Assembly (NCBI RefSeq): GCF_030651915.1
Contig: NZ_JAUSBV010000010.1
Location: 310,001-374,000 of the forward strand
From: Parvibaculum sp.
GTDB lineage: Bacteria > Pseudomonadota > Alphaproteobacteria > Parvibaculales > Parvibaculaceae
DNA: 64,000 nucleotides
Direction: 5' to 3'
A program made the translations under genes and the position numbers. Position 1 is the stretch's first letter. The number at the start of each line of letters is the position of its first letter. This document shows, in pieces, positions 7,440-23,410 of this stretch. Under the pieces are notes generated by a model. The model worked only from the letters and a program-made list of their open reading frames with translations, was not told where the DNA came from and made no database searches.

Positions 7440-10289
7440 TTGTCCGATACTCAAGACAACGACATTCCGGGTAGCGAGCCGGGCCCGGGCGGCGACACCG
7501 ATGTGGAAAACAGTCTGAACGGCGGCGGTTCGCGTCCGCCGGCCGGCGGCGCGGCGGGCGGCCTTCCGCCGGAGCGCGACGTTTCCCCGATCGCCATCGA
7601 AGACGAGATGCGCAGCTCCTATCTCGATTACGCAATGAGCGTGATCGTCAGCCGGGCGCTGCCCGATGCGCGGGACGGCCTCAAGCCCGTCCATCGCCGT
7701 ATCCTCTTTTCAATGAATGAGAACGGCTACGACTGGAACAAGCCCTATCGCAAGTCGGCGCGCGTCGTCGGCGACGTCATTGGCAAGTATCATCCGCATG
7801 GCGACCAGTCGATCTACGACGCGCTGGTGCGCATGGCGCAGGAATTCTCGATGCGCCTGCCGTTGCTGGACGGGCAGGGCAATTTCGGTTCGGTCGACGG
7901 CGACCCGCCGGCCGCCATGCGTTACACCGAAGTGCGTATGGCCAAGACCGCCCATGCGCTGCTGCGCGACATCGACAGGAATACGATCGACTTCAAGGAC
8001 AATTACGACGGCTCCGAGCGCGAGCCGGTCGTCCTGCCGGCTGAATTTCCAAACCTTCTGGTCAACGGCGCCGGCGGCATCGCCGTCGGAATGGCGACCA
8101 ACATCCCGCCGCACAATCTCGGCGAGGTGATCGACGCCTGCATCGCGCAGATCGACAATCCCGAGATCACGGTCGATGAGCTGATCGAACATGTGCCGGC
8201 GCCCGATTTTCCGACCGGCGGCATCATGCTCGGCCGTCAGGGTGCGCGCTCGGCCTATCATCTCGGCCGCGGCTCGGTCGTTGTCCGGGGCCGGGTCGAC
8301 ATCGAGGAAGTGCGCAAGGACCGCCAGGCGCTGGTCATCACCGAGATTCCCTATCAGGTCAATAAGGCCTCGATGGTCGAGAAGATCGCCGAGCTGGTGC
8401 GCGAAAAGCGCATCGAGGGCATTTCGGACCTGCGCGACGAATCCGACCGCAACGGCATGCGCGTCGTTGTGGAGCTGCGCCGCGACGCGGTGCCCGATGT
8501 GGTGCTGAACCAGCTCTACCGCTTCTCGCCGCTCCAGCAGAGCTTTGGCTGCAACATGCTGGCGCTCGACCATGGCCGCCCGGAGCTGATGAACCTCAAG
8601 CAGTTCCTGGCCATTTTCATTGCCTTCCGCGAGGAAGTGATTTCGCGGCGCACCAAGTTCGAGCTCACCAAGGCGCGCGATCGCGCCCATGTGCTGGTCG
8701 GCATGGCCATCGCGGTCGCCAATATCGATGAGGTGATCCAGCTCATCCGCACCGCGCCCGATCCGGCGGCGGCGCGCGAGCGCCTGATGGCGCGCGACTG
8801 GCCGGCCGCCGATATCTCGCCGCTGATTGCGCTGATCGACGATCCGCGTCACCGCCTGTCGGATGAAGGCACGACGCGCATGTCCGAGGAACAGGCGAAA
8901 GCCATTCTCGAATTGCGCCTGCAGCGTCTCACGGCGCTTGGCCGCGACGAAATCGGCGACGAGCTCAAGGGGCTCGGCGAGAAGATTTCGGACTATCTCG
9001 ACATTCTGCGATCGCGGGAACGCGTGCTCACCATCATGCGCGATGAGCTGCTGGCGATGAAGTCGGAATTCGCCACGCCGCGCCGTACCGAAATCATCGA
9101 GTCGGAATCCGACTTCGAAGACGAAGACCTGATCCAGCGCGAAGACATGGTCATCACCGTCAGCCATCACGGCTATATCAAACGCGTGCCGCTTTCGACC
9201 TATCGGGCGCAGCGCCGCGGCGGCAAGGGTCGATCCGGCATGTCGACGCGCGACGAGGATTTCGTCACCCGCCTTTTCGTCGCCAACACGCATACGCCGG
9301 TGCTGTTCTTCTCGTCCACCGGCATGGTCTACAAGCTCAAGGTCTGGCGCCTGCCGCAATCGACGCCACAGGCGCGCGGCAAGGCGATGATCAACATTCT
9401 GCCGCTGAAGCAGGGCGAGACCATCACCACCATCATGCCGCTGCCCGAAGACGAGAGTAAGTGGGATGAGCTGTTTGTGATGTTTGCCACGAAGAGCGGC
9501 GGCGTCCGGCGCAACAAGCTTTCCGATTTCATCCAGATCAATCGTAGCGGCAAGATCGCGATGAAGCTCGAGGACGAAGGCGACAGCATCATCGGCGTGC
9601 AGATATGCACTGAAAATGACGATGTGCTGCTGACGGCGGCGGGTGGGCGTTCGGCGCGCTTCCCTGTCTCGGAAGTGCGCGTCTTTGCCGGCCGCACCTC
9701 CACCGGCGTGCGCGGCATCCGGCTCGATGAAGGCGACGAGGTGATCGGCATGACGATCCTGCGCCATGTCGAAGTGACCTCGGCGGAGCGCGAGGCCTAT
9801 TTGAAGCAGGCGGCCGCCATGCGTCGGGCTACGCTGGGCGACATTTCGGTCGATGACGGCCCGTCGAAGACCGACGAGGAAGACGCCGACGACGCGGCGA
9901 TCGAGGACCTCACCCTGACCACCGAGCGTTATGCCGAGCTTGGCGCCAAGGAACAGTTCGTGCTCGCCGTCACCGAGAAAGGCTTCGGACGCCGTTCCTC
10001 CTCCTATCGCTATCCGGCCAAGGGCCGCGGCGGCAAGGGCGTCATTGCGATGGATATCGGCGCGCGCAACGGCAGGCTGATCGCCTCCTTCCCGGTTGAG
10101 GACGACGACCAGATCATGCTTGTCACCGATGCCGGCCAGCTCATTCGTTGCCCGGTCCATGACATCTCGATCCAGGCGCGCGGCACGCAAGGCGTCACCG
10201 TCTTCCGCACCGCCGCCGACGAGCGTGTCGTCTCGGTCGAGCGGGTCGAGGAAAGTGCCGACAGCGAAGCCGGCGACGAGCAGGAATAG
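7440..10289 (+). CDS. gyrA: DNA gyrase subunit A
   Basis: The breakage-reunion subunit of gyrase, which introduces negative supercoils with GyrB. The frame gives 949 residues with a glycine/proline-rich N-terminal extension of about 48 residues before the conserved [20 protein letters not shown]. The catalytic tyrosine is Tyr162 in RYTEVRM. The C-terminal beta-pinwheel is present, with an acidic insertion and an acidic tail (DSEAGDEQE). The only upstream in-frame initiator is TTG at 7440, with a poor ribosome-binding site; GTG at 7503 is an alternative. The quinolone-resistance region reads HGDQSIYD, so the position equivalent to E. coli Ser83 is Gln123. coaD follows after 5 bp. Confidence 0.96.
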
Positions 10290-10294
10290 AACAT

Positions 10295-10798
10295 ATGGCG
10301 CGCATCGGACTTTATCCCGGCACATTCGACCCGATGACCAATGGCCATCTCGATGTCATCCGCCGCGCTCTGACGCTGGTCGATCATCTGGTGGTCGCGA
10401 TCGGCGTCAATGCCACCAAAACACCGCTGCTGACGCTTGAGGAACGCTTCGCGCTGATCGAGGCCGAGGCCGCGCCGCTGGCAAAGGCGGCGGGCGCACG
10501 GGTCAGCACGGCCTCCTTTTCCGGCCTTGTCGTCAATGCGGCCGACGAGGCGGGTGCCAGCGTCATCATCCGCGGCTTGCGCGGCGCCGTCGATTTCGAG
10601 TACGAAACCCAGATGGTCGGTATGAACCGCGTCATGAACCCGAAAGTCGAGACGGTTTTTCTGGCCGCTTCGCCCGAAACGCAGTTCATCTCCTCGACGC
10701 TGGTGCGCCAGATCGCCTCGATGGGCGGGGATATCCTGCCCTTCGTGCCCAAGCGCGTCGCCGACAAGGTGCTGGCGCGCATGGCCGAAAAGAAATAA
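10295..10798 (+). CDS. coaD: Phosphopantetheine adenylyltransferase
   Basis: Catalyses ATP + 4'-phosphopantetheine to dephospho-CoA, the penultimate step of coenzyme A synthesis, in the cytoplasm. The 167-residue protein has the nucleotidyltransferase signature YPGTFDPMTNGHLDVI, with the TxGH-type motif in the form TNGH. It also has RGLRGAVDFEYE and the ISSTLVRQ motif near the C-terminus. Its length is normal for the family. It starts 5 bp after the gyrA stop, so it is almost certainly co-transcribed with gyrA. Confidence 0.96.
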   Translation: MARIGLYPGTFDPMTNGHLDVIRRALTLVDHLVVAIGVNATKTPLLTLEERFALIEAEAAPLAKAAGARVSTASFSGLVVNAADEAGASVIIRGLRGAVDFEYETQMVGMNRVMNPKVETVFLAASPETQFISSTLVRQIASMGGDILPFVPKRVADKVLARMAEKK

Positions 10799-10836
10799 TC
10801 GTCGATAGAAGCAGTCATGAGAAACGGGAGTATCCC

Positions 10837-11379
10837 ATGCGTAGACTGACGACCGCGCTGATCGCGCTTCTGGCGCTTGCCGGGCTTTCGGGAAAGGCCT
10901 TCGCGCTTGACCCGGAAAACACCATCTATCTCGATCTCAAGGATGGCCGCGTCGTCATCGAGCTGCTGCCAGAGGTGGCGCCGCGCCATGCCGAACGCAT
11001 CAAGACGCTGGCGCGCGAGGGCTTTTATGACGGCATCGTCTTTCACCGCGTCATCGAGGGCTTCATGGCCCAGACCGGCGACCCGACCGGCACCGGCATG
11101 GGCGGTTCCTTCCTCGACGATCTCAGGGCCGAGTTCTCGCACAATGAAAGCTTCACGCGCGGCGCGCTCGGCATGGCGCGCTCGCAAAGCCCCAACAGCG
11201 CCAACAGCCAATTCTTCATCGTCTTCGACGACGCCTCGTTTCTCGACGGGCAATACACGCTTTTCGGCCGTGTCGTCGAGGGCATGGAATTCGTCGACAA
11301 CATCAAGCGCGGCGAGCCGCCTTCGGATCCCGACAAGATCGTGAAGATGCAGGTTGCCGCCGACGTAAAGGAAAATTGA
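10837..11379 (+). CDS. Periplasmic cyclophilin-type peptidyl-prolyl isomerase
   Basis: A 180-residue cyclophilin with a cleavable signal peptide (MRRLTTALIALLALAGLSG, likely cleavage after KAFA at residue 23), so it folds proteins in the periplasm. The core has FHRVIEGFMAQ (catalytic Arg and the Phe-Met-x-Gln cluster) and NSANSQFFI. As in other bacterial forms, the positions matching human cyclophilin A Trp121 and His126 differ (SFLDGQY). It has a good GGGAG ribosome-binding site. It is followed 7 bp later by a cytosolic paralogue; the pair looks like a tandem duplication that split between two compartments. Confidence 0.93.
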   Translation: MRRLTTALIALLALAGLSGKAFALDPENTIYLDLKDGRVVIELLPEVAPRHAERIKTLAREGFYDGIVFHRVIEGFMAQTGDPTGTGMGGSFLDDLRAEFSHNESFTRGALGMARSQSPNSANSQFFIVFDDASFLDGQYTLFGRVVEGMEFVDNIKRGEPPSDPDKIVKMQVAADVKEN

Positions 11380-11386
11380 AACCGCC

Positions 11387-11860
11387 ATGACCGATATCAA
11401 GGACCCCGAAAACACGCTGATCATGGAGATTCCGCACGGGAAAGTCGTGATCGAGCTCAGGCCCGATCTCGCGCCGAAGCATGTCGCCCGCATCAAGGAA
11501 CTGGCACGTGAAGGTTTTTACGACGGCATCGCCTTTCACCGCGTCATCGACGGCTTCATGGCCCAGGGCGGCGATCCGACGGGCACCGGCTCGGGCGGTT
11601 CGGGCAAGAAGATCCCGGCCGAGTTCTCGAAGGAACCGCATGTCCGCGGCACCTGTTCGATGGCCCGCACGCAAGACCCCAACAGCGCCGATTGCCAGTT
11701 CTTCATCTGCTTCGGCGACACCGCCTTCCTTGACGGGCAATACACCGTCTGGGGCCAGGTGATTTCGGGAATGGACGCCGTCGACAAGATCAAGCGCGGC
11801 GAACCCGTCCGCGATCCCGACCGCATCGTCAAAATGCGCGTCGCGGCGGATGCGGCGTAG
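11387..11860 (+). CDS. ppiB: Cytosolic cyclophilin-type peptidyl-prolyl isomerase
   Basis: A 157-residue cyclophilin without a signal peptide, so cytoplasmic. It shares most of its core with the periplasmic copy just upstream, including AREGFYDGI, FHRVIDGFMAQ, DPTGTG and FLDGQYT. The spacing of 7 bp makes a two-gene unit, probably continuous with gyrA-coaD. The 3' side is followed by a structured REPIN-like element before queA. Confidence 0.93.
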   Translation: MTDIKDPENTLIMEIPHGKVVIELRPDLAPKHVARIKELAREGFYDGIAFHRVIDGFMAQGGDPTGTGSGGSGKKIPAEFSKEPHVRGTCSMARTQDPNSADCQFFICFGDTAFLDGQYTVWGQVISGMDAVDKIKRGEPVRDPDRIVKMRVAADAA

Positions 11861-11886
11861 CCGGCGCCGTCGCAACGCACCTTCTT

Positions 11887-12085
11887 CCACCCTCCCCTGG
11901 GGGGAGGGTCAAACAGAACGGCTTTGGCGATTTATTGCCAAAGCCGTTCGGTTTGGGGCGGGGTCGCTGACTTCGTCGCATGTTTAAACGATAGCGAGTT
12001 CACCGTGGCGAGACCGAGCCCCCGCCCCGAAAAATTCGTCGCTACGCTCTCGAATTTTTCGACCCGCCCCCTAGGGGCGGGTGGG
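11887..12085. repeat. REPIN-like paired palindromic element (copy 1)
   Basis: The 24-bp arm at 11887-11910 matches the reverse complement of 12061-12084 at 21 of 24 positions, and each arm is itself a GC-rich palindrome. Inside are a perfect 13-bp hairpin (11916-11928 with 11937-11949, 8-nt loop) and a perfect 11-bp hairpin, CGAAAAATTCG with CGAATTTTTCG, just before the right arm. The element fills most of the ppiB-queA gap. The same architecture recurs at 21122-21300. One of the hairpins may also terminate the gyrA-ppiB transcript. Confidence 0.75.
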
Positions 12086-12108
12086 ATACATCGGATTGAT
12101 CGAACCCC

Positions 12109-13164
12109 ATGCGCGTTTCCGATTTCGATTTCGAGCTGCCGGAAGCGCTGATTGCGCTTCGGCCGGCCCGTCCGCGCGACGCGGCGCGGATGCTGGTCAT
12201 CGGCCCGGATCAAAACGCGCTGGCCGATGAAACCGTGCGCGACCTGCCCGGCCATCTGCGCCAGGGCGATATCCTCGTCTTCAACGATACGAAGGTCATC
12301 CCGGCCCGTCTCTTCGGCACGCGCCGGCGCGGCGACGCGGAAGCCCGCATCGAGGTGATGCTGCATCTGCGCGCAGGGCCCGCTGCATGGCGCGCCTTCC
12401 TGCGCCCGGCCAAGAAGCTCAATCCCGGCGAGACGATCGAATTTGCCGGCGGGCTCGTCGCCACCGTCGAGGACAAGGGCGAGGGCGGCGAGGCGGGCTT
12501 GCGCTTTTCGCTGTCCGGCGCCGCGCTTGATGCCGCCATCGCCATTGCCGGTGAAATGCCGCTGCCGCCCTATATCGCCCGCAAGCGCGCAACGGACGAG
12601 GCCGACCTTGCGGACTACCAGACGCTCCATGCCAGCGAGCCCGGCGCCGTTGCGGCCCCCACGGCCGGTCTCCATTTCACGCCCGAACTGATGGCCGCCA
12701 TCGAAGCGCGCGGCGTCCACTGCGTCCGGCTGACGCTGCATGTCGGCGCCGGCACCTTCCTGCCGGTCACGGCCGAGGACACTGACGCCCATAAAATGCA
12801 TGCCGAATGGGGCGAGATCGCGCCTGCGGAGGCTGCGGCCATCGAGGAAGCCCGCGCCCGCGGCGGCCGCGTCGTCGCGGTCGGCACCACGGCGCTGCGC
12901 CTGCTTGAAAGCGCGGCGGATGCCGAAGGCCGCATCCATCCCTTTCGCGGCGAGACCGACATCTTTATAACGCCGGGCTATCGCTTCCGCGCCGTGGACC
13001 TGCTGATGACCAATTTCCACTTGCCCAAATCGACGCTTTTCATGCTGGTCTCAGCGCTGCGCTCGCTCGACGAGATGAAGCGCGCCTACGCGCATGCGGT
13101 TGCCGCGCAATACCGCTTCTATTCCTATGGCGATGCCACCTTGATCTACAGGGCCACGCCATGA
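12109..13164 (+). CDS. queA: S-adenosylmethionine:tRNA ribosyltransferase-isomerase
   Basis: QueA transfers and isomerises the ribosyl moiety of SAM onto preQ1 in tRNA to make epoxyqueuosine at wobble position 34. The 351-residue protein opens [20 protein letters not shown] and carries the conserved [25 protein letters not shown] region. It also has PLPPYI, the T-A-G-L-H-F-T block and the C-terminal [10 protein letters not shown] motif. It overlaps tgt by 4 bp (ATGA), so the two are translationally coupled and supply consecutive steps of queuosine synthesis. Confidence 0.97.
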
Positions 13165-14300
13165 GCGCCTTCTCCTTCAGGCTCGCCGCCACTGACGGCC
13201 AGGCCCGCACCGGCGCCATTTCGACGCCGCGCGGGGAAATCCGCACGCCGGCCTTCATGCCGGTCGGCACGGCCGCCACCGTCAAGGCGATGTATCCCGA
13301 GCAGGTGCGCGCCACCGGCGCCGACATCGTGCTCGGCAACACCTATCATCTGATGCTGCGCCCCGGCGCCGAGGAGGTTGCGGCGCTGGGCGGCCTGCAT
13401 CATTTCATGAACTGGCCGCATCCGATCCTGACCGACAGCGGCGGTTTCCAGGTGATGTCGCTGTCGAAGCTGCGCAAGATGAGCGAGGAGGGCGTCGCCT
13501 TCCAGTCGCACTTGGACGGCTCGCGCCACATGCTCTCGCCCGAGCGCTCGATCGAAATCCAGTGCCTCTTGGGTTCCGACATCCAGATGCAGCTCGACGA
13601 ATGCACGCCCTTTCCGGCGACCGAGGCCGAAGCCGAAAAGTCGATGGAACTCTCCTTGCGCTGGGCCGCGCGTTCGAAAGCCGCCTTCGAGGCTGAGCTG
13701 CATCGCACCCCCGGCATGGCGCTGTTCGGCATCGTCCAGGGCAGCACCTATGAGCCCTTGCGCAAGCGCTCGGCCGCCGGCCTGCAGCAGATCGGTTTCG
13801 ACGGCTATGCGGTCGGCGGGCTTGCGGTCGGCGAGGGCCAGGCCGAAATGCTGCGTGTGCTCGATTTCACGGTGCCGGACCTGCCGGCCGACAAGCCGCG
13901 TTATCTGATGGGCGTCGGCACGCCTGACGATCTCGTCGAAGCGGTGCGCCGCGGCATCGACATGTTCGACTGCGTGATGCCGACCCGCAATGGCCGCCAC
14001 GGCCTTGCCTTCACGGCGCGCGGCAAGGTCAACCTCAAGAATGCCCGCCACGCCGCCGATCCGCGCCCGCTCGACGCCGAAAGCACATGCCCCGCCGCGC
14101 GCGACTATTCCCGCGCCTATCTCCATCACCTGATCAAGTCGGGCGAGATGCTGGGTTCGATGCTGGTCAGCTGGATCAACCTCCACTACTACCAGAGCCT
14201 GATGGCCGAGATGCGCGCCGCCATCGCCGAAGCGCGCTTCGAGGCCTTTATCGCCGGCTTCAAGGGCGCCCAGGCCGGCGGCGATATCGAGCCGGTGTGA
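13161..14300 (+). CDS. tgt: tRNA-guanine transglycosylase
   Basis: Exchanges G34 of GUN-anticodon tRNAs for preQ1, the step before QueA. The 379-residue protein has the catalytic aspartates Asp92 (TDSGGFQ) and Asp270 ([14 protein letters not shown]) and the GNTYHL motif. The zinc-binding region is unusual: the C-x-C-x-x-C of Zymomonas TGT is here Ser308, Cys310 and Ala313, and the distal His aligns with Ile339, so three of four ligands are absent. Neighbouring conserved sequence ([10 protein letters not shown]) is intact, so this is not a frameshift. The start overlaps the queA stop. Confidence 0.96.
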
Positions 14301-14469
14301 GGGGCATGGGCTTGCGCTCAAATCTCGGCATCATCCCGTGGTTCGTCCTCCAAATCCCCAAGCCCGAAAAGGATTTACCCGCAATCCAACCCCGTGGTTG
14401 ACCCCGCCCGACGCGCCCCTTAAGTTCCGCCCACCTTTTGAGCGGCGGCACGAGATTCCGCCCTCCGGC

Positions 14470-14544
14470 GGGCCCTTAGCTCAGCGGTAGAGCGGCTGAC
14501 TTTTAATCAGTAGGTCGATGGTTCGATCCCATCAGGGCTCACCA
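14470..14544 (+). tRNA. tRNA-Lys(UUU)
   Basis: A full cloverleaf can be drawn: acceptor GGGCCCT (14470-14476) pairs with AGGGCTC (14534-14540), D-stem GCTC/GAGC, anticodon stem 14495-14499 with 14507-14511, T-arm GATGG-TTCGATC-CCATC. The anticodon loop is CTTTTAA with anticodon TTT at 14502-14504. The CCA end is encoded (14542-14544). Confidence 0.95.
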
Positions 14545-14586
14545 CTCTTTCTCTTTCACGCCATCATTCCGGTCAAAATATCTGTC

Positions 14587-14641
14587 ACCCCGGCGACCCG
14601 CCTCCCATAGCTGCGAAGTAGCGAAGGGAGAAAGCCGGGGT
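14587..14641. repeat. Intergenic REP-type hairpin after tRNA-Lys
   Basis: ACCCCGGC at 14587-14594 pairs with GCCGGGGT at 14634-14641, and inner CTCCC/GGGAG and GCT/AGC pairs extend the fold. Elements of the form CCCCGGC...GCCGGGG are common dispersed repeats in alphaproteobacterial intergenic DNA. It could also end the tRNA transcript. Confidence 0.55.
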
Positions 14642-14720
14642 CCATGGGCGGCACGATTGCCTGACGTCGTTGCCGTGTTGCGGCTAGGTTTGAACGGCCA
14701 ACTCAGCACGGACGACACCC

Positions 14721-15155
14721 ATGCCCCCACACCCCTCCAATCTCCCGCCACCCTATGAAGGCGGCTGCGCTTGCGGCGCGGTCCGCTTTCGCGCCGATGC
14801 CGCGCCGCTCGGCGTCCGCTTCTGTCATTGCCGCATCTGCCAGCAGGCGATGGGGGCGCCATTCCTTGCCGTCGCCTCCTTTCCGAAAGCCGCCGTCACG
14901 GTCACGGGCGCGACGGCGCGCTGGCGCTCGTCGGAAAGGCTCTGGCGTCACTTCTGTCCGCAATGCGGCACGCGGCTGACGCTCGAACCGCTCGACGGTG
15001 CCCGTCTCGGCTTTCCGCTGGCGACGCTCGACAACCCGGCGGCGCTTCATCCGGAAATGCATATCTGGGTATCGTCGCAGGTTCCCTGGCTCGTCATTGA
15101 CGACGGATTGCCGCGCCATGCGGAGGGATCGCCCGAGCCTTACCGGATGACGTGA
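14721..15155 (+). CDS. GFA/CENP-V family zinc protein
   Basis: A 144-residue protein of the family named for glutathione-dependent formaldehyde-activating enzyme. The zinc-binding cysteines are all present: GGCACGAVRF (Cys17, Cys19), FCHCRICQQ (Cys36, Cys38, Cys41) and FCPQCGTRL near residue 80. Most members have no proven reaction, and a formaldehyde role should not be assumed. It is a single gene, preceded by the tRNA-associated hairpin and followed by 336 bp without a gene. Confidence 0.85.
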   Translation: MPPHPSNLPPPYEGGCACGAVRFRADAAPLGVRFCHCRICQQAMGAPFLAVASFPKAAVTVTGATARWRSSERLWRHFCPQCGTRLTLEPLDGARLGFPLATLDNPAALHPEMHIWVSSQVPWLVIDDGLPRHAEGSPEPYRMT

Positions 15156-15182
15156 AAATACGGTGCGCGGATTTTTTGACGC

Positions 15183-15234
15183 GCCTTGTCTGTTCCCGGC
15201 CGGCCGTTTCTTGCTGTTTGCGCGCATCTGGCCG
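15183..15234 (+). repeat. 52-bp direct repeat, left copy
   Basis: This matches 18218-18269 at 49 of 52 positions in the same orientation; together the copies bracket the globin-chemoreceptor gene. The unit contains CTTGTCTGTT and CTTGCTGTT as an imperfect internal direct repeat around a CGGCCGGCCG core. The rest of the 15156-15491 gap shows no gene; it must carry the promoter of the downstream gene. Confidence 0.8.
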
Positions 15235-15491
15235 CCAGAATGCCACGGACCGGGGATCGTTGCCTGTCGGGGGGATGACCCGTCCATGTCATGGCCGCAG
15301 GCCGTACCGGCGCGACAATTTCTCAATGAAAGCTTACCGAAGAACCGTGTCCCGGTTAAGGACACCTTATGGCGTCTTCGCCAATCATGCCGTTGAAAGA
15401 TGCGCATGATGGCAGGCGAACGGGGTAGGCGACTTCATTTCCCGATGCTGTTGCCGTAACGCGCCGAGGGGAATGCCGAGGGGGAATATCG

Positions 15492-18110
15492 ATGACACCG
15501 GAAATCCGACAGCGTGTTCAAGACTCATTTGCGGCCGTTGCGCCGATCGCGGAGCAGGCCGCCGAACTTTTTTACGGCCGCCTTTTCGAGACCGCGCCCG
15601 AACTCAGACCGCTCTTCAAGGGCGACATGAAGGAACAGGGCCGCAAGCTGATGAAAATGCTGGCGATGGCCGTAAGCGGCCTGAACGACATCGACCGCCT
15701 CGTGCCCGCGGTCGAGGCGTTGGGCCGCCGGCATGTCGGCTATGGCGTCAAGCCGGCGGACTACCAGACCGTCGGCGCCGCGCTTCTGTGGACGCTGGAG
15801 CAAGGTCTGGGGGCCCGGTTCACGCCCGATGTGCGGGCCGCTTGGGAAGCCGCCTATGAATTGCTCGCCGGCGTCATGATCAAAGCCTCCCTTTCACCGC
15901 AAACAGCGGAAACCTCACCACCGACAGCACCCGAGAGAAAACCGATGCACAGCATGATCCATCGACTGACAAACGTCTCCCTCGCCGTCAAGATTCCGGC
16001 CCTGGTCGCGATAGCCGCGTTGCTGTCCGTCATCGCCGTCGGGACGATGAGCTACCTTCAAGCGGCCGACGCCCTGCACGCCGAAGCCGAAACCCGATAT
16101 ACCGCTCTTGCCGAAGCGCGGGCGGATGCGCTTGGTTCCTATCTGGGAAGCATCCGGGAAGATCTTAGCGTCACCGCGGCCAACAGCATGGTTGCCGATG
16201 CGCTTGTCGCCTTCGACCAGGGCTTTCGCGAGATAGACCGGGACGGCCGGGGCGCGCAGGTTCTTCAGGACCTCTATATTCGGGGCAATCCGCACCCGAC
16301 AGGCGAGAAGCACAAATGGGATCAGGCTGGCGATGGCTCGACCTACAGCACGGCGCACGGCACCTATCATCCGTGGTTCCGTCAGTTGACCGAAATGCGC
16401 GGCTACTACGACGTCTTCCTGATCTCGCGTAGCGGCGACATCGTCTATTCGACCTTCAAGGAGCTCGATTTCGGAACGAATCTAAAATCCGGTGAATGGA
16501 AGACGAGCGACCTTGCGAAGGTCTTCAATGCGGCCAGCGACAATGCGACGTCCGGTAAGATCGTCTTTACGGACTTTGCGCCCTATGCACCGAGCAATGG
16601 CGCCGCGGCCAGTTTCATCACCACGCCCGTCATGCGCAACGGCCGGTTCCTCGGCGTGCTCGCCTTCCAGATGCCGATCGAGCGCATCAACGCGGTCATG
16701 CAGTCATCCGCCGGCATGGGCGAGAGCGGCGAGACCTATCTGGTTGGCGCCGACTATCTGATGCGCAGCGATTCCCGCTTTTCCAAGACATCGACGATCC
16801 TCGAAACCAGGATCGAAGGCGAAACGGTGAAGGCCGCGCTCGCCGGCGAGAGCGGGATCAGGAACATCCGGGACTATCGTGGCGTCCCGGTGCTCTCCGC
16901 CTTCCGGCCCTTCGACTTCGAAGGCGTGCGCTGGGCCATCATCGGCGAGATCGATATCGAAGAGATGATGATTCCGGCCAACAACATGCGCAACATCGCC
17001 GCCCTTATCGGCCTTGGTGTGCTCATCGTGCTCGCCGCGATCGGGGTCTTCGTTGCGCGTACCATCACGCGGCCGGTCTCCGCCATGACCGGTGCCATGA
17101 ACATGCTTGCGGGCGGCAATCATTCGGTCGAGATCCCGGCAACGGAACGCCGCGACGAGGTGGGGCTGATGGCCAAGGCCGTGCTCGTGTTCAAGGAAAA
17201 CATGATCCGGGCGAAAGAGCTCGCGGTCAAGGAAGCGGCCGCACAGGAACAGCGTGAGCGCCGGGCGCGCGCCATTGACGAGCTCACCGCCTCGTTCGAC
17301 AACGATGTCAGCGCCGTCCTGAAGACGGTGGCATCGGCGGCGACCGAACTGCAAGCGACCTCGCAGAACATGTCGGCGATCGCCGAGGAGACCTCGCGTC
17401 AGGCCGTTGCCGTCGCCGGAGCCTCGGACCAGGCGTCCAGCAATGTGCAGACGGTCGCCTCCGCAACCGAGGAACTTTCGTCGACGGTCGTCGAGATCGG
17501 CCGCCAGGTCACCCAGTCGGCCGAAATCGCCGCCCAGGCCGTCAACGAAGTGACAAAGACCAACGACACCGTGAAGAGCCTCGCGGAAGCGGCGCGGCGG
17601 ATCGGCGATGTGGTCCAGCTCATCAACGACATCGCCGCGCAGACCAACTTGCTGGCGCTCAACGCAACGATTGAGGCGGCACGCGCCGGGGAAGCCGGCA
17701 AGGGCTTCGCGGTCGTCGCGTCCGAGGTGAAGTCCCTCGCCAATCAGACGGCCCAGGCCACCGAGGGCATTACGGCGCAGGTCAGTGCCATTCAGAACGC
17801 CACCGACGGTGCCGTGACGGCGATGGGGAGCATTGGCGACATCGTCGGGCGTGTCGCTGAAATCGCGACGACCATTGCCTCGGCAGTGGAAGAGCAGCAG
17901 GCTGCAACGCAGGAAATCGCCCGCAATGTTCAGCAGGCGGCGCAAGGCACGCAGGAGGTGACCCTCAACATCGCTGGTGTGACCGAGGCGGCGGGCTCGA
18001 CGGGCGTCGCAACCGGACAGGTCCTCAGTGCGGCGAACGAACTTTCGCAACAGTCGGAGAGCCTCAGCGCCCGGGTGGATACCTTCCTGGTGGCGATCAA
18101 GGCCGCCTGA
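15492..18110 (+). CDS. Globin-methyl-accepting chemotaxis protein fusion (transmembrane)
   Basis: An 872-residue fused receptor. Residues 1-133 are a haemoglobin domain of the Vitreoscilla/flavohaemoglobin kind, with Tyr28 (B10), Phe42 (CD1), Gln49 (E7 region) and proximal His81 in GRRHVGYGV. After a Pro-rich linker (134-151) comes a complete transmembrane chemoreceptor: TM1 about 168-188, a periplasmic Cache-like sensor (about 190-500, with [12 protein letters not shown]), TM2 about 501-523, HAMP about 524-577, and a methyl-accepting signalling domain whose tip is 704-750 ([20 protein letters not shown]). It should sense O2 or NO inside and a ligand outside, and signal to CheA/CheW. The ribosome-binding site GAGGGGGA fits the ATG at 15492. 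No che genes are nearby. Confidence 0.92.
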
Positions 18111-18138
18111 TTGGTCTGAATGGTCATTCCGATCGATG

Positions 18139-18168
18139 GACGGCGCGCGGCGGAAGTCGCGCGCCGTC
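18139..18168 (+). terminator. Putative terminator of the globin-chemoreceptor gene
   Basis: A perfect 11-bp stem (18139-18149 with 18158-18168) with an 8-nt loop begins 29 bp after the stop codon. It lacks a clear T-run, so Rho-independent function is not certain. Confidence 0.6.
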
Positions 18169-18217
18169 TGTCGTATCCGAGCGGCGCGCAATCGGCCCGA
18201 AACCGTCTGGTTGATCT

Positions 18218-18269
18218 GCCTTGTCTGTTCCCGGCCGGACGTTTCTTGCTGTTTGCGTGCGTCTGGCCG
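18218..18269 (+). repeat. 52-bp direct repeat, right copy
   Basis: This is the partner of 15183-15234 (three mismatches). It lies between the chemoreceptor terminator and the Hen1-like gene. The rest of the 18111-18336 gap holds no gene. Confidence 0.8.
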
Positions 18270-18336
18270 ATAAAGGCCCCGTTCCGTTCATTGTGCGGGT
18301 GCCGATGCAGGGCCACGAAGCGCAGGGAGACGCCGC

Positions 18337-18963
18337 ATGACCACCTGGCTGCACGAACAGCGGCTGCAAGCGGCGCGCGCGGCCGTGCGAGAGAGCGGCG
18401 CCACCTCCGTGCTCGATCTCGGTTGCGGCGATGGCGATCTGCTCATCCGTCTCGCAGCCGAGCCCGGAATCGCGCGGATCGTCGGCATCGATCTCTGTGG
18501 CGATGCGCTCGGCCGGCTTCGCGCGCGGCTCGATGCGTTGGCGCCAAAGGCGGTGGCCGAGGTCGATCTGGTGCAGGGCTCGATGACCGACGCCCGGGCC
18601 TCGCTTGCCGGCTTCGATTGTGCCGTCCTGATCGAGACCATCGAACATATCGAGCCGGACCGGCTGTCGGTCCTCGAACGCGCCCTCTTTGTCGTGATGC
18701 GGCCGGCAACCGTGATCATCACGACGCCCAACGCTGAATTCAATTCGCTGCTTGGCGTGCCGTCCCACCGCTTCCGCCATCCCGGCCATCGCTTCGAATG
18801 GGACCGCGCCAAGTTCCAGCGCTGGGCGGGCGGCGTCGCGGCGCGCAACTCCTATGCGGTCGCCTGCCGCGATATCGGCGATCGTCACCCGGCGCTTGGC
18901 GGCGCAAGCCAGATGGCGGTGTTCGACCTTGCCCGCCGCCCCGGCGGGCGTCTCGCCGCCTGA
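18337..18963 (+). CDS. Hen1-type RNA 3'-terminal ribose 2'-O-methyltransferase domain, stand-alone
   Basis: A 208-residue class I SAM methyltransferase. The SAM-binding loop is DLGCGDG at residues 27-33. The Hen1 metal site is complete: Glu100, Glu103 and His104 in ETIEHIEP, and His151 in HPGHRFEWDRAKF, followed by the family-typical QMAVFDL end. Hen1 methylates the 2'-OH of RNA 3' ends. In the well-studied bacterial system it has an extra N-terminal domain and is encoded with Pnkp to repair cleaved RNA. Here only the catalytic domain is present and no pnkp or ligase gene lies in the window. A small-RNA or tRNA substrate is inference. Confidence 0.82.
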   Translation: MTTWLHEQRLQAARAAVRESGATSVLDLGCGDGDLLIRLAAEPGIARIVGIDLCGDALGRLRARLDALAPKAVAEVDLVQGSMTDARASLAGFDCAVLIETIEHIEPDRLSVLERALFVVMRPATVIITTPNAEFNSLLGVPSHRFRHPGHRFEWDRAKFQRWAGGVAARNSYAVACRDIGDRHPALGGASQMAVFDLARRPGGRLAA

Positions 18964-18997
18964 ACGGCGCCAACTCCGAAGATGTGCACTCGATTCC

Positions 18998-20374
18998 TCA
19001 CGTCATGCTGCCGGCGAGACTGTCGATCTGCGCCGTTGCGGCATCGGCCTCGGCCGCGAAGGCGAGCCGTTGCGCCAGGCTCTGTCGCAGGCGCCAATAG
19101 GGAAGGGCGTGATGGGAATGCGGCGCCCGGTCGCGCACCCTTTCGATCCAGTCCCAGGCGGCCGTGTTGGCCCGCCCGCTCAGCCCTTGCGCCACCGCAT
19201 AGCCGAAATAGAAGCGGGTCCAATCGGCGGTGTCGCGGAAACCCTGCTCGACGTCCTCAAGCATGGCCGCATCGATCGCATTCTGGCGTGCGGCCAGGTG
19301 AAACCGCAGCAGCGACAATGCCGGCCGCTTCCGGCAGCGCGCCAGCAGCGCCGCCATCGCGGCAGGCGTCATCGGCCCGGCGAAGGTGGCGGCGAGGTTC
19401 GGCGCGGTGAAATAGGGGCCGACCCGCGCATCGATCATTTCCTCCAGCGCCGAAAGCGCTCCGTCGGCCTCGGGGCAGATGCCGTCGGCCAGATCGCGCA
19501 CGGCCTCGATCGCGGCAAGCTGGCGCGGCGCGGGTGCTGCCTGCTGCATGGCACCGTCGATCAGCTTGCGTGCCGCCGTGCCATGGGCCGGATTTCCGGC
19601 CGCCGCCATGGCGGCAAACAGCAGGTGGACATGAAAGGCATAGCCACCATCCCGCCGCAGCCCGGCCTCGATATCGCCGTCGCCGATGCGGGCAAACCAG
19701 CCGGCAATCTCAGCGGCGCGGGCCGCGTCCGGCATGCCGGTGCGGCCGGCGCCGTGAAACGAGAGTGCGGTCACGCGTTGCAGCGTCGTCCAGCGAATGG
19801 CGGGGTCCAGCGCGAAGAATTTCAGCATGTGCCAGACGACGCGGCGGTCGGTTGCCGCCATCCATGCCCCGGCACCGCTGAGATAGACTTCCTTGCTGTG
19901 TGCCAGATGGGTATCGAAGACACCCTTGAACTTGTCCTCGATCAGCAGGCGCTTCATTTCCGGATGGGCGGAGTCGCTGAGCGCCAGCGACACGGCGCCG
20001 TCGACCTGCACGGATACTGCCGGCGTGTCGACCACATCGGCTTTGTCCAGCGCCGCGCCAAGCAGTTCGACATGCCGCGGCAACAGCAGATCGTCATCGT
20101 CATTGTAGAAGATGCGCTCGGCCGCTGCCGCGCGCACCGCGCGGTCGCGATTGGCGACGCCGCGAAACGGTTCCTTCGACCGGTCGGAAAACAGGATGCG
20201 CGGGTCGCTACGGGCGAAGCTCTCGGCGATTTCACGCACTGCCGGCGTCGCGCCATCGCCGGACACCACGATCTCGATGTCGCGCACCGTTTGCGCCTGC
20301 GCCGAGCGGATCGACCAGGGCAGGGTGCTCGCCCTGTCATGGGTCGGGATCACAATGCTCGCATAGGGGGCCAT
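18998..20374 (-). CDS. Family 2 glycosyltransferase
   Basis: A 458-residue protein starting ATG at 20374 behind GGAGA. It begins YASIVIPTHDRASTLPWSIRS, the classic GT2 (GT-A fold) opening, and has the nucleotide-sugar/metal motif region FYNDDDDLLLPRH near residue 95. The second half is helical with no family I recognise. It likely adds a sugar to a surface polysaccharide, together with the epimerase gene 29 bp upstream in the same operon. An upstream in-frame extension to 20593 overlaps that gene and is unlikely to be used. Confidence 0.82.
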   Translation of the reverse strand: MAPYASIVIPTHDRASTLPWSIRSAQAQTVRDIEIVVSGDGATPAVREIAESFARSDPRILFSDRSKEPFRGVANRDRAVRAAAAERIFYNDDDDLLLPRHVELLGAALDKADVVDTPAVSVQVDGAVSLALSDSAHPEMKRLLIEDKFKGVFDTHLAHSKEVYLSGAGAWMAATDRRVVWHMLKFFALDPAIRWTTLQRVTALSFHGAGRTGMPDAARAAEIAGWFARIGDGDIEAGLRRDGGYAFHVHLLFAAMAAAGNPAHGTAARKLIDGAMQQAAPAPRQLAAIEAVRDLADGICPEADGALSALEEMIDARVGPYFTAPNLAATFAGPMTPAAMAALLARCRKRPALSLLRFHLAARQNAIDAAMLEDVEQGFRDTADWTRFYFGYAVAQGLSGRANTAAWDWIERVRDRAPHSHHALPYWRLRQSLAQRLAFAAEADAATAQIDSLAGSMT

Positions 20375-20403
20375 AAGGTCTCCGTCGATCGGCCGGTGGC
20401 GCG

Positions 20404-20952
20404 CTAGCGGAAGATCGGATGATCCGGAAACAGCGCCGACAGAAAAGGCTGCGCCGCGTCCGTTTCGGACAGGATCGGCGTTCGCGTCGGCCAATCGACG
20501 GCCAGCGTCGGATCGTTCCAGGCGACGCCAAACCGGTTCGCCGGATCGAACGGGGCCGAAACATCGTTCAGATAGTCGGTCTCGCTGAAGCAATAAAAAG
20601 CGTTGCTGAGGCCGCGGCTGACAAAGACGCGCGCATATTCGCCGGGTGCGTCGCCCAGCATGAAGCTCTCGCTCTGGCCGAAGGTCGGGCTTTCGGGCCG
20701 CACATCGGCGGACACGAACATCGCGGTGCCGCGCGGCACATAGACAAGCTTGTCCCAGGGCTCGGTATGGAAGCCCCGCAGCACGCCGGCGCGCGAGCGC
20801 GAATGGTTGCCCTGCGCCAGAACCGGCGCCCGCCCCAGCGCCTCGGCAAGCTCGCCGGCCTGATAGCTGTGCTTGAAAAAGCCGCGGCTGTCTTCGCGCA
20901 AAGGCCAGCGAACGAGGAACAGGCCGGCAATCGACGTCGGAAGGACAGGCAT
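20404..20952 (-). CDS. dTDP-4-dehydrorhamnose 3,5-epimerase family protein
   Basis: A 182-residue cupin-fold sugar-nucleotide epimerase. The family markers are FKHSYQ near residue 27, the GVLRGFHTEPWDKLVYVPRG block with the catalytic His, and the SDV/FGVAWNDP region. It forms a two-gene operon with the downstream glycosyltransferase. rfbA, rfbB and rfbD are not nearby, so the exact sugar is unknown. The 20953-21330 gap upstream is mostly a REPIN-like element. Confidence 0.85.
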   Translation of the reverse strand: MPVLPTSIAGLFLVRWPLREDSRGFFKHSYQAGELAEALGRAPVLAQGNHSRSRAGVLRGFHTEPWDKLVYVPRGTAMFVSADVRPESPTFGQSESFMLGDAPGEYARVFVSRGLSNAFYCFSETDYLNDVSAPFDPANRFGVAWNDPTLAVDWPTRTPILSETDAAQPFLSALFPDHPIFR

Positions 20953-21121
20953 GAACGCACCTCAGATCTGGAGTTCAGCTTGATCCAGATCAACCGCGCC
21001 CCCTGCCTGATATGCCAGAACGCAAGGCCGGAATAAATCCCCGATCGGTTGCCAGGCCCGGAAAACGTCATGCAAGGCCCGGCAAACCTCTTTGCGGGAG
21101 CCCTGTCTGTCGCTTGGTGAC

Positions 21122-21300
21122 TTCCCACCCTCCCCCTGAGGGAGGGTCAAAATTCGTCTTCGAATTTTGGGGAGGGGTAAGCGTGGAACGGCAACGCATA
21201 ATCGTGATTCCTGCATCCGCCGATAACGGAGCACCCCTCCCCGAAATTTGTTTCGCTAACGCTGCACAAATTTCGACCCTCCCTCAGGGGGAGGGTGGGA
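21122..21300. repeat. REPIN-like paired palindromic element (copy 2)
   Basis: The 27-bp arm at 21122-21148 is the exact reverse complement of 21274-21300; each arm is a CCCTCC/GGAGGG palindrome. Next to the left arm is an AAAATTCG/CGAATTTT hairpin and GGGGAGGGGT; next to the right arm are ACCCCTCCCC and GAAATTTG...CAAATTTC. The layout mirrors 11887-12085. It lies between the divergent-side start of the sugar epimerase gene and the stop of the Rnk-like gene, and no gene is seen in this 378-bp gap. Confidence 0.8.
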
Positions 21301-21330
21301 AATATCGATATCTCCCGTGTGTCTCCTATC

Positions 21331-21744
21331 TCACCCGCGCTCGACCACCCTCACCACCTTGAGCCAGCGCAGATCGCCATGGCGCGAGCTCCAGGAGATG
21401 GTCTGGCCTTCGCGCATGCCGAGCAGAGCCACGCCGACCGGCGAGGCGATCGAGACCACGCCCTCGTCCGACGAGCGCGCCGTCGGATAGACGAGCGTCA
21501 GCCGCTGCACGCGGCCCTTCATGCCGAAGATGAAGTCGACCGTCGAATTGACGGTCACGACATCGTCCGGCAGTTGCACCAGCGGCAGGACGGTCGCGCG
21601 CGCCAGCTCCCGATCGAGAAAATGCGCGACCTCCGGCAGCACGTCTTCAAGCCCGCCGGCCACCGCCGACAGTTGATCGTATTGCTCCGCCGCCACCATG
21701 ATCGGCGGCATTGCGGCGTGGATCGCTTCTGCATGCACGGTCAT
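21331..21744 (-). CDS. Rnk-like GreA/GreB C-terminal-domain protein (second of pair)
   Basis: A 137-residue protein with the Rnk plan: a short helical N-terminal part (VAAEQYDQLSAVAGGL, about 1-55) and a GreA/GreB C-terminal FKBP-like domain (about 60-135, with the family signature VVSIASPVGVALLGMREGQTI). Rnk binds RNA polymerase in the secondary-channel region but lacks the GreA cleavage finger. The start at 21744 follows the stop of the upstream paralogue by one base (TGAGATG), so the two are translationally coupled. Confidence 0.8.
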   Translation of the reverse strand: MTVHAEAIHAAMPPIMVAAEQYDQLSAVAGGLEDVLPEVAHFLDRELARATVLPLVQLPDDVVTVNSTVDFIFGMKGRVQRLTLVYPTARSSDEGVVSIASPVGVALLGMREGQTISWSSRHGDLRWLKVVRVVERG

Positions 21745-21745
21745 C

Positions 21746-22279
21746 TCAAGCGGCCTCCGGTCCGTTGTTGTCCGGCCCCTCTCCATCCGCCAAGTCTCCG
21801 GCCGGTGCGGCGTTTTCCATGCGGCGGCGGATATCGGCTTCCGGCTGAAAGTCGATGCCGGTGAGTTCGAGCGTCAGCCGCGCACCGTCGAAAAGTTCGG
21901 CCTCGACAATGTCGCCGGCGGACTGGCCGAACAGCGCCAGGCCGATGGGCGTCAGCACGCTCAGATACTGGCCATTCGGTGCCGGCCCCCGCTGCAATTG
22001 CATCATCCGCCGCTCGGCAAGGCGGCCGTCAATTCGATAGCGAACGACGCTGCCCAGCGTCGCCACGGTTTCGGCGACGGCGGCGCCCGCCACCACCTTT
22101 GCCTCGGCGAGTTTCGCGCGGACGCGGGCCCGCATCGGGCTCGTGAGATCGAGGTCCTCGAAGCTCGCGGCTTCAAGCCGCGCATAATCCGACGAGGTCA
22201 GCACGGGCCGCGATGCCGTTTGCGGGTTCGGAACGATATTCAGTTGGGCGCGGCTGCCGCCGCCATTGACGATGGACAT
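21746..22279 (-). CDS. Rnk-like GreA/GreB C-terminal-domain protein (first of pair)
   Basis: A 177-residue paralogue of the following gene. It has an N-terminal helical segment (about 28-65), a GreA/GreB C-terminal domain (about 70-145, VVRYRIDGRLAERRMMQL and LSVLTPIGLALFGQSAGDIV), and a low-complexity acidic tail. A coupled pair suggests a heteromer or divided roles at RNA polymerase; that is inference. A GC-rich imperfect stem at 22354-22399 lies in its 5' leader. The rest of the 319-bp gap to 22598 shows no gene. Confidence 0.75.
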   Translation of the reverse strand: MSIVNGGGSRAQLNIVPNPQTASRPVLTSSDYARLEAASFEDLDLTSPMRARVRAKLAEAKVVAGAAVAETVATLGSVVRYRIDGRLAERRMMQLQRGPAPNGQYLSVLTPIGLALFGQSAGDIVEAELFDGARLTLELTGIDFQPEADIRRRMENAAPAGDLADGEGPDNNGPEAA

Positions 22280-22598
22280 GACAAAACCTCATCGCACGGC
22301 TGGACCCATGGTCCGCCGATGCCGATTGAAATGAAACGATCTGTGAAGTCGGTCCCCGGGTCTGGCTCGCGCAAAGGCGCAAAGCCGCGAGCCCGGGGCT
22401 AATGTCCCGCGAGCAGCGTACCCGGCGTCAGAAAAACAGGTGCGGTGGCTTTGCGCATAATGACCTCAGGCTAGCCCTTGTGCCGGAAAAGTCAAAGCGG
22501 GCAGGGGTGGCCGAACGCCGCAGCCCGATTCGCTTCCCGCTTGCTTTCCCTCCGTCCGCTGAGCACCATGATGCCCGGAAACCGGCAAGGGGGGGTGC

Positions 22599-22982
22599 AT
22601 GATCGACTGGCGCAGATATCCAAATTTCAGCGAGCGCGAATTTCGCTGCTCGGCCACCGGCCAATGCGACATGCAGGCCGAATTTCTTGATGTGCTGCAA
22701 GCGATCCGCACCGAATACGGAAGGCCCATGCGCATCAGTTCGGGTTTTCGTGCCCGCTCGCACCCGGTCGAAAGACGAAAGGCCGCCACAGGCGCGCATC
22801 CTCAAGGCATTGCCGCCGATATTCTGGTCTCCGGCGCGGCGGCGCTGGCGCTGATGGACATTGCCCGCAAGCATGGCATCCGCCGCATCGGCCTCAACCA
22901 GAAAGGCGCCGTCTCCGGCCGCTTCCTGCATCTCGACATTGGCGGGCCGGGCCTGTCGTCGCCAGCCGTCTGGACCTATTGA
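22599..22982 (+). CDS. M15-family (endolysin-like) D-Ala-D-Ala peptidase
   Basis: A 127-residue metallopeptidase that should cut peptidoglycan peptide stems. Zinc ligands are visible as His67 and Asp74 (HPQGIAAD) and His111 (FLHLDIG). SSGFRARSHP and the opening WRRYPNFSEREF are typical of the short phage-type M15 peptidases. There is no signal peptide, so it would need a holin or lysis to reach the wall, or acts as a domesticated phage enzyme. The AAGGGGGGG ribosome-binding site supports the start at 22599. Confidence 0.82.
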   Translation: MIDWRRYPNFSEREFRCSATGQCDMQAEFLDVLQAIRTEYGRPMRISSGFRARSHPVERRKAATGAHPQGIAADILVSGAAALALMDIARKHGIRRIGLNQKGAVSGRFLHLDIGGPGLSSPAVWTY

Positions 22983-23003
22983 ACGGGCGCGCCCGCCGGG
23001 TGA

Positions 23004-23363
23004 TTACGGAGCGGGCGTCACGAGCCTGACGATGCCGACTGCCAAACCCAAAGCCTGATCGACGGCATCGATAATGTCCGTGGTTCGGTCGAGGCCCTTG
23101 AGAATTTCGTCGATCCTTTGATTGGCGGCGACAAGCGCGGCGGTCGCACCGGTAACCTGAGCCGTGGAATTGCGGAGTCCGGCGACAATCGCTGCGGTCA
23201 GCGCATCCCTGCAGCCGTTTAGCAATCTCCCAAGACGTTGGACTGTTTCATCGCTTGCCTGAGGATCGAATCTCGCTTTCCTGTAGGCCGCATGGGCTAG
23301 CCGATAGGCTTCTTCGAGAGCTTCAATCGGGTTCGATGTTTCTGTTGCGGGGTCGTTTGGCAT
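23004..23363 (-). CDS. Hypothetical helical protein
   Basis: A 119-residue protein I do not recognise. It appears all-helical (YRLAHAAYRKARF, ANQRIDEILKGLDRTTDIIDAVDQAL) with a mildly hydrophobic C-terminal helix ending VGIVRLVTPAP. It follows the lipoprotein gene by 47 bp in the same direction and probably belongs to one transcript. Both are poorer in G+C by eye than flanking genes, suggesting later acquisition. A role with the envelope is only inferred from the partner. Confidence 0.6.
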   Translation of the reverse strand: MPNDPATETSNPIEALEEAYRLAHAAYRKARFDPQASDETVQRLGRLLNGCRDALTAAIVAGLRNSTAQVTGATAALVAANQRIDEILKGLDRTTDIIDAVDQALGLAVGIVRLVTPAP

Positions 23364-23410
23364 TGCCGTTCGTCCTCACACCGGGAATTTTTCTGCAGTC
23401 AGAAAACAAG

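Follow-up and report, generated by a model that had tools for sequence, protein, structure and literature searches.

Can a single chemoreceptor read both a ligand outside the cell and a gas inside it? The question is raised by a gene in a 64,000-nucleotide stretch (the window) of the genome of a Parvibaculum sp. (Alphaproteobacteria, Parvibaculaceae; RefSeq assembly GCF_030651915.1, contig NZ_JAUSBV010000010.1, positions 310,001 to 374,000), which encodes a globin joined to a methyl-accepting chemotaxis protein (MCP). We consider it reasonably probable that the product is a membrane chemoreceptor that carries a second sensor on its cytoplasmic side: a globin of the Hell's-Gate (HGb) type, placed before the first transmembrane segment (TM1) of an otherwise ordinary dCache-HAMP-MCP receptor, would respond through its haem to O2 or nitric oxide (NO) alongside a periplasmic ligand. 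The inferred parts of this reading are the loading of haem, the identity of the ligand, the contacts within the dimer, signalling and the integration of two inputs.

Domains and haem pocket of the fusion receptor

The gene is a single stop-free frame on the forward strand (15492-18110; 872 codons, ATG start). A search of the whole genome recovers the same frame, which spans 893 codons between its stops, in the middle of a 599-kb contig. Its product carries, in order, a globin, an 18-residue linker, TM1, a periplasmic double-Cache sensor, a second transmembrane segment (TM2), a HAMP domain and an MCP signalling domain (Table 1). All four domains exceed the curated cut-offs in a Pfam-A search of the 872-residue protein: Globin (PF00042, residues 27-129, E 3.4e-19), dCache_1 (E 1e-15), HAMP (E 6.4e-9) and MCPsignal (E 9.7e-31). 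The two hydropathy peaks bracket the Cache domain, and this is the TM-dCache-TM-HAMP-MCPsignal layout of Class I dCache-HAMP chemoreceptors. Pfam-A detected neither a FAD/NAD reductase domain nor an N-terminal PAS domain of the type present in Aer, whose place is occupied by the globin. The preliminary description of the locus, made from the letters alone, had recognized a globin with hallmark residues at the cytoplasmic N-terminus of a complete transmembrane MCP, together with a periplasmic Cache-like sensor and HAMP, and had proposed a search with hidden Markov models. That search, which places all four domains in one frame, bears out this architecture, in agreement with hydropathy and with the pocket residues described below.

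An AlphaFold2 model of residues 152-575, built from a 17-row receptor alignment, consists of a long TM1 helix, a double Cache and a TM2-HAMP region, with a mean predicted local distance difference test (pLDDT) score of 87.3. Its closest fold matches are integrative models of whole MCPs, followed by sensor domains, among which those of PctA, CtaA and DctB rank above TlpQ and McpH. No ligand could be assigned to the Cache domain by searches of the PDB: a single-sequence search gave nothing useful, a profile search retrieved HAMP regions only (AF1503 HAMP structures) and the fold search returned general dCache relatives.

The globin domain (residues 1-133) was modelled from a 13-row alignment with a mean pLDDT of 94.5. 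The top PDB match of the model is O2-bound HGbI (3s1i, TM-score 0.93, root-mean-square deviation 1.1), and the predicted structure has a 3-over-3 globin fold. Ranked by sequence, the closest solved chain is HGbRL of Methylacidiphilum infernorum (PDB 3wfw/3wfx; 2.7e-30), followed by HGbI (2e-23), neuroglobins (7e-17 and weaker), a flavohaemoglobin (1.9e-14) and Vitreoscilla haemoglobin (5e-14). On these comparisons the globin is of the Hell's-Gate type (HGbI/HGbRL-like and neuroglobin-like) and not of the Vitreoscilla/flavohaemoglobin type, to which it had at first been assigned. Vitreoscilla haemoglobin and flavohaemoglobins belong to the same broad bacterial group with Tyr(B10) and Gln(E7) (PMC4476040), but they are more distant by sequence, and the FAD/NAD reductase has no counterpart in the fusion receptor. 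HGbI and neuroglobin share the fold, and HGbI also the distal Tyr/Gln pair, but both stand alone with no output domain. HGbRL is, like the window globin, N-terminal in a putative sensor and has Tyr28 and Lys52(E10); its output is a Roadblock/LC7 domain with no membrane part, whereas the fusion receptor has a transmembrane MCP.

The alignment to HGbRL is gap-free over globin residues 2-131, so that the published HGbRL numbering applies. The pocket residues Tyr28(B10), Phe42(CD1), Gln49(E7), Lys52(E10), Arg80, His81(F8) and Tyr84 are all kept. Among 101 other globins, B10 Tyr, CD1 Phe, E7 Gln and F8 His are each present in all 101, and the window globin keeps every one of the 35 columns with at least 95% conservation. 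The haem pocket, as judged from these alignments, is conserved and is not decaying. Lys at E10 is shared by 98 of the 101 relatives and is therefore not diagnostic of an HGbRL-type sensor. The signal proposed for HGbRL is the displacement, by a ligand, of Lys52, which otherwise closes on the haem; HGbI holds O2 through Tyr(B10) and Gln(E7), and both proteins bind O2 (PMC4476040).

The top sequence match raises the possibility that the globin forms a site-swapped dimer like that of HGbRL. At the 18 positions contrasted between HGbRL and HGbI in PMC4476040, the window globin is HGbRL-like at six (including Trp100 and Thr101), HGbI-like at six (including Gly63 and Pro72, in the E-F region) and like neither at six. 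In the model, helices 46-65 and 67-84 are separated by a single residue, in a monomer that cannot show a dimer swap. The TM-score of the model is 0.47 against single HGbRL chains and 0.93 against HGbI; the former is expected to be low because a chain of a swapped dimer is scored against an unswapped monomer. Evenly split positions and a monomer model that fits HGbI leave such a dimer a mere possibility.

Table 1. Features of the fusion gene and its flanks in the window
Feature	Position	Strand	Basis
Direct repeat of 59 bp, left copy, flanking the fusion gene	15176..15234	+	repeat search
Shine-Dalgarno-like GAGGGGG, 7 nt before Met1	15478..15484	+	sequence; -10.7 kcal/mol
Whole gene, 872 aa, globin-linker-TM1-dCache-TM2-HAMP-MCPsignal	15492..18110	+	open reading frame, Pfam-A
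Globin domain, residues 1-133 (Y28 B10, F42 CD1, Q49 E7, K52 E10, R80, H81 F8, Y84)	15492..15890	+	Pfam-A, AlphaFold2, HGbRL numbering (PMC4476040)
Linker, residues 134-151, Pro/Thr/Ser-rich, 18 residues	15891..15944	+	composition, GC3 (G+C at third codon positions)
Weak Shine-Dalgarno-like GAGAG, 7 nt before Met152	15933..15937	+	sequence, duplex energy
Met152, possible internal start; aligns with the start codon of the globin-free ortholog in G010	15945..15947	+	alignment
TM1, residues 165-183	15984..16040	+	hydropathy 2.43; long helix in model
Periplasmic double-Cache sensor, residues 194-485	16071..16946	+	Pfam dCache_1; fold matches
TM2, residues 502-520	16995..17051	+	hydropathy 2.87; model
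HAMP domain, residues 520-570	17049..17201	+	Pfam-A; profile match to AF1503 HAMP structures
MCP signalling domain, residues 674-831	17511..17984	+	Pfam-A
Direct repeat of 59 bp, right copy, 90% identical to the left	18211..18269	+	repeat search

The 59-bp direct repeat that brackets the fusion gene has no other genomic copies at the sensitivity of the search; a dispersed repeat was considered and rejected, since it occurs at just two places in the genome.

Start site, linker and origin of the fusion

An alternative that we regard as unlikely is that the functional receptor is a short MCP starting at Met152, or that both forms are made, with the globin separate, poorly translated or a by-product. 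Going upstream from Met1, the frame offers no further ATG, GTG or TTG before it reaches a stop, the TAG at 15426. Shine-Dalgarno strength was scored at seven starts as duplex energy with an anti-Shine-Dalgarno sequence. Met1 has the strongest value (-10.7 kcal/mol), which 0.7% of 3000 random sequences reach, while Met152, for all that a GAGAG motif stands 7 nt before it, has -5.2 kcal/mol, as has Met155, a value reached by 19%. The starts of four neighbouring genes score -3.1, -3.2, -3.3 and -8.1 kcal/mol, and because three of the four lack a good site, the energy is a weak guide in this genome; as such, it favours Met1. The short form draws support from a congener, G010, whose MCP ortholog lacks the globin and begins exactly at the position of Met152; against it stand the 35 conserved columns kept by a globin half that is not decaying.

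The G010 ortholog (79% over window residues 152-872) is the one close ortholog found when the MCP half was searched among 24 congeners. No close match to the globin domain occurs in 26 other genomes of the genus, some of them incomplete (at most 34% identity). In the family, nine of 13 other genomes encode the globin domain at 61-66% identity, always stand-alone in frames of 140-196 codons. The sensor domain is encoded in 76 of 385 genomes of a class sample (E 1e-30), and none of 33 distinct places besides the window (from 30 loci and seven longer stretches, three of the seven repeating earlier ones) has a globin at a receptor with this domain; the places in G040:C2 and G016 likewise lack one. 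Because a congener has a globin-free ortholog and the family has stand-alone globins, the simplest reading of these sequences is that the globin was added in the lineage of the window and that the fusion is derived. It would have arisen when a globin gene and an MCP gene became joined in frame.

The linker is probably the former end of the globin gene together with intergenic DNA that is now read through, an origin that its low GC3 fits. GC3 is 7/18 in the linker, whereas the globin and TM1-dCache both reach 0.78 and HAMP-MCP 0.83. Of 855 18-codon segments none is lower, an overlapping neighbour being tied, and the binomial P is 0.00025 (p 0.79) for a stretch chosen after being seen.

No intermediate with a globin gene just ahead of an MCP gene was found, and none of 95 globin loci (some duplicates, many short) has an MCP directly downstream of a stand-alone globin. 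Four of the 95 contain an MCP in another frame: in L097, L100 and L132 it is about 3.5 kb away, and in L018 (G078) a divergent stand-alone globin gene is preceded, at about 180 bp, by the end of a HAMP-MCP gene, the two being a possible two-gene receptor. The downstream methyltransferase is present in just two of 40 other genomes, and no empty site was identified in comparisons with window positions 9001-24000, where the G001 stretch shares the methyltransferase alone and the G010 stretch the MCP alone.

In a globin tree (103 rows, 133 columns) the window globin falls within a set of 37 rows with a Shimodaira-Hasegawa-like approximate likelihood ratio test (SH-aLRT) value of 95. The set consists of the window globin, its duplicate and 35 globins, with mostly alphaproteobacterial titles and none with an MCP match. 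The approximately unbiased (AU) test rejected neither a grouping of the window globin with eight N-terminally fused globins (p-AU 0.36) nor one with 15 MCP-fused rows (0.18); three long-branch rows and the window duplicate were dropped from the test, and loci L208-L214 are absent from the tree. The fusion is likely to be of independent origin from other MCP-globin fusions, mainly because the receptor halves differ.

Globins in other chemotaxis proteins

The validated globin aerotaxis receptors are HemAT-Bs, HemAT-Hs, GCSBh and Atu1027 (PMC13401364, a 2026 review of aerotaxis). Receptors of this type have, like the fusion, an N-terminal globin and a C-terminal MCP signalling domain (PMC13401364). 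Their globin is a Protoglobin (PF11563; PMC6194562), whereas that of the fusion is of the HGb type (PF00042) and Protoglobin has no match in the protein up to E 1. HemAT-Bs consists of globin, linker and signalling domain (PMC13401364), to which the fusion receptor adds TM1, a periplasmic Cache, TM2 and HAMP; Atu1027 has no transmembrane segment (PMC10851874), whereas the fusion has two. The Pfam assignments uphold the earlier view that HemAT proteins use a sensor globin distinct from the one found here. Strictly defined, a HemAT or globin-coupled sensor carries a Protoglobin and is a soluble globin-linker-MCP protein, and the fusion receptor is neither.

Other receptors share some of its features. 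E. coli Aer and DcrH of Desulfovibrio are chemoreceptors with a cytoplasmic sensor related to O2 or redox (PMC13401364). The cofactor domain of Aer is a FAD-PAS, whereas the fusion receptor has a globin; DcrH has the periplasmic part, HAMP and MCP domain of the fusion, but its hemerythrin-like O2 domain is C-terminal and di-iron (PMC13401364). Cc_4972 of Corallococcus coralloides (PAS + Bac_globin + MCP) resembles the fusion in carrying a non-Protoglobin globin on an MCP, but this is by label a Bac_globin (PF01152), and the protein is cytosolic, with a PAS and no periplasmic sensor (PMC6194562). Nematode GLB-33 joins a globin to a putative transmembrane receptor (PMC13331133), which is an animal receptor and not an MCP. 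In the open-access literature, outside which most subscription papers and all preprints fall, our searches yielded no report of a transmembrane MCP bearing an HGb-type globin, and the parts of PMC1457004, PMC3770913 and PMC3403918 consulted describe no such protein.

Among genomes, the globin family is itself common: it was found in 54 of 385 of the class (E 1e-15, a threshold that, by frame length, seems to admit flavohaemoglobins), in 31 of 398 of a phylum sample (1e-25) and, in two overlapping samples of another class, in 36 of 293 (1e-30) and 61 of 312 (1e-25). A scan of contigs confirmed 476 globin relatives, of which the best 80 were kept, with records near the window genome possibly left out. 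Plasmid records matching the globin number 274, the best identity being 60% among the 30 best listed.

Eleven proteins (L070, L114, L189-L191 and L208-L213) are globin-PAS-MCP fusions, whose related PF00042 globin is also N-terminal but which have a PAS instead of a Cache and no TM-like segment; L189-L191 and L208-L213, from another class of the phylum, have the order globin-PAS-HAMP-MCP. L131 is a short globin-MCP protein. In L013 and L150-L154 (frames of 271-562 codons, with no TM-like segment) an MCP signalling tip is followed by a C-terminal HGb-type globin, two in L150. In long open frames of L149, L079, L105, L118 and L139, Pfam detects a globin and nothing else. Among the 312 genomes, 33 globin places lie in frames of at least 780 codons, one with internal stops; eight of these places, in seven genomes, comprise six globin-PAS-MCP proteins, one CheA with an internal globin and one incomplete case. 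The CheA (L214:369-2885, G808:C28) has an 838-residue frame with the order Hpt-Globin (284-387)-H-kinase_dim-HATPase-CheW and one marginal TM-like score; a gas-sensing CheA, if true, would be striking. The same stretch holds the beginning of a globin-PAS protein (L214:4174-5502), incomplete and with no TM-like segment.

Two metagenomic frames, both cut by a contig end, may represent further membrane globin receptors: L108:574-3435 (globin-TM-unnamed region-TM-HAMP-PAS-HAMP, two TM-like segments) and L143:1571-3154 (globin-TM-HAMP-PAS, one such segment). They are the exceptions among 20 other fusions, of which 18 have no TM-like segment. These 18 have an MCP match, while the MCP part of L108 and L143 lies outside the sequence; the frames of L214 are excluded from the count. 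By domain content, HGb-type globins are repeatedly fused to MCPs in Proteobacteria, but among those examined it is rare, though probably not unique, for the globin to be carried by a membrane receptor that has a periplasmic sensor.

The window genome itself (3.5 Mb, 11 contigs, 100% complete) has three matches to the MCP signalling domain: the fusion gene, L156 and L157. L157 is an MCP without a known sensor domain, and L156 (G000:C8:1152266-1153684) joins a Protoglobin (5.5e-41) to an MCP and is thus a HemAT-type receptor. By Pfam, the genes near it include cheA (Hpt, H-kinase_dim, HATPase, CheW and receiver domains), cheW, cheB, cheR and one for a receiver protein, with one for a PAS histidine kinase in between, on a contig other than that of the fusion gene. 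Since the globin of L156 is a Protoglobin and that of the fusion a PF00042 globin, two of the three receptors carry a globin, each from a different family. Contig C10 holds the sole other PF00042 globin found in this genome, a distant one.

Proposed signalling and significance

How might the globin act on the receptor? The haem would bind O2, and perhaps NO, directly or by displacing Lys52(E10), and gas binding would shift helix E and loop CE. The paired globins of the dimer, held on flexible linkers beside TM1 and HAMP, may then change their packing against each other, TM1 or HAMP. This would bias the signalling hairpin and shift control of CheA; as the same hairpin would serve the periplasmic ligand, the two signals could add. 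With a linker that is rich in Pro and Thr and probably flexible, the globin seems likelier to touch HAMP from the side than to push rigidly on TM1. Such a lateral HAMP contact has been suggested for the PAS at the N-terminus of E. coli Aer, a protein anchored in the membrane through its middle. By analogy, the domain order would resemble that of Aer, with a globin in place of the PAS and a periplasmic Cache in addition.

Several points weigh against this proposal. The transmembrane segments are predicted from hydropathy and a monomer model. Only one genome shows the fusion to a dCache receptor, and a second, short product may be made from Met152. The composition and GC3 of the linker were picked post hoc, and this long, probably flexible segment offers no obvious rigid coupling.

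It is quite improbable, in our view, that the globin is instead a local scavenger of O2 or NO, or an NO dioxygenase, at the receptor array with no part in signalling. NO dioxygenation has been called common in the haemoglobin superfamily (PMC3820574) and stand-alone relatives of this globin are common, but the fusion protein has no reductase domain, and the presence of related globins repeatedly on MCPs, and once in CheA, points to signalling. We give the same low probability to a globin that senses a cue other than a gas, such as redox state, a lipid or an alcohol, through the haem pocket or its surface. There are precedents in HemAT, which senses ethanol without haem (PMC7542364), and in HGb-I, which responds to lipid (PMC11203436), and hexacoordination by Lys52(E10) could, from the description of HGbRL in PMC4476040, give a redox response; the Tyr(B10)/Gln(E7) pair, however, is the one with which HGbI binds O2 (PMC4476040), and nothing direct speaks for another ligand. 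Finally, an assembly or sequencing artefact joining two genes is very improbable: the fusion is confined to one genome and its junction falls in the low-GC3 linker, but the gene lies well inside its contig with no in-frame stop from Met1 to the end and, as none of the 95 globin loci, many of them short, has an MCP directly downstream, there is no known gene pair to mis-join.

We put at about even the chances that the protein represents an apparently undescribed class of membrane-anchored globin chemoreceptor, whose single polypeptide would respond both to a ligand in the periplasm and to O2 or NO in the cytoplasm. In the class I-IV scheme of chemoreceptors, periplasmic sensing belongs to class I and cytoplasmic sensing to classes II and IV; the scheme as reviewed separates by class what the periplasmic Cache and cytoplasmic globin of the fusion bring together (PMC13401364). 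The fusion would then be one outcome of a repeated recruitment of HGb-type globins, to the N-terminus of MCPs, to their C-terminus and to the inside of CheA. Two of the three chemoreceptors of the species would be haem sensors drawn from two globin lineages, one soluble and one membrane-bound, and so small a set, with one HemAT-type member, could show why a cell keeps two sensing globin lineages. The two congeners, which have the same receptor with and without the globin, form a natural before-and-after pair, and the fusion, if functional, would offer a compact and genetically tractable case in which to measure how one receptor integrates signals from outside and inside the cell.

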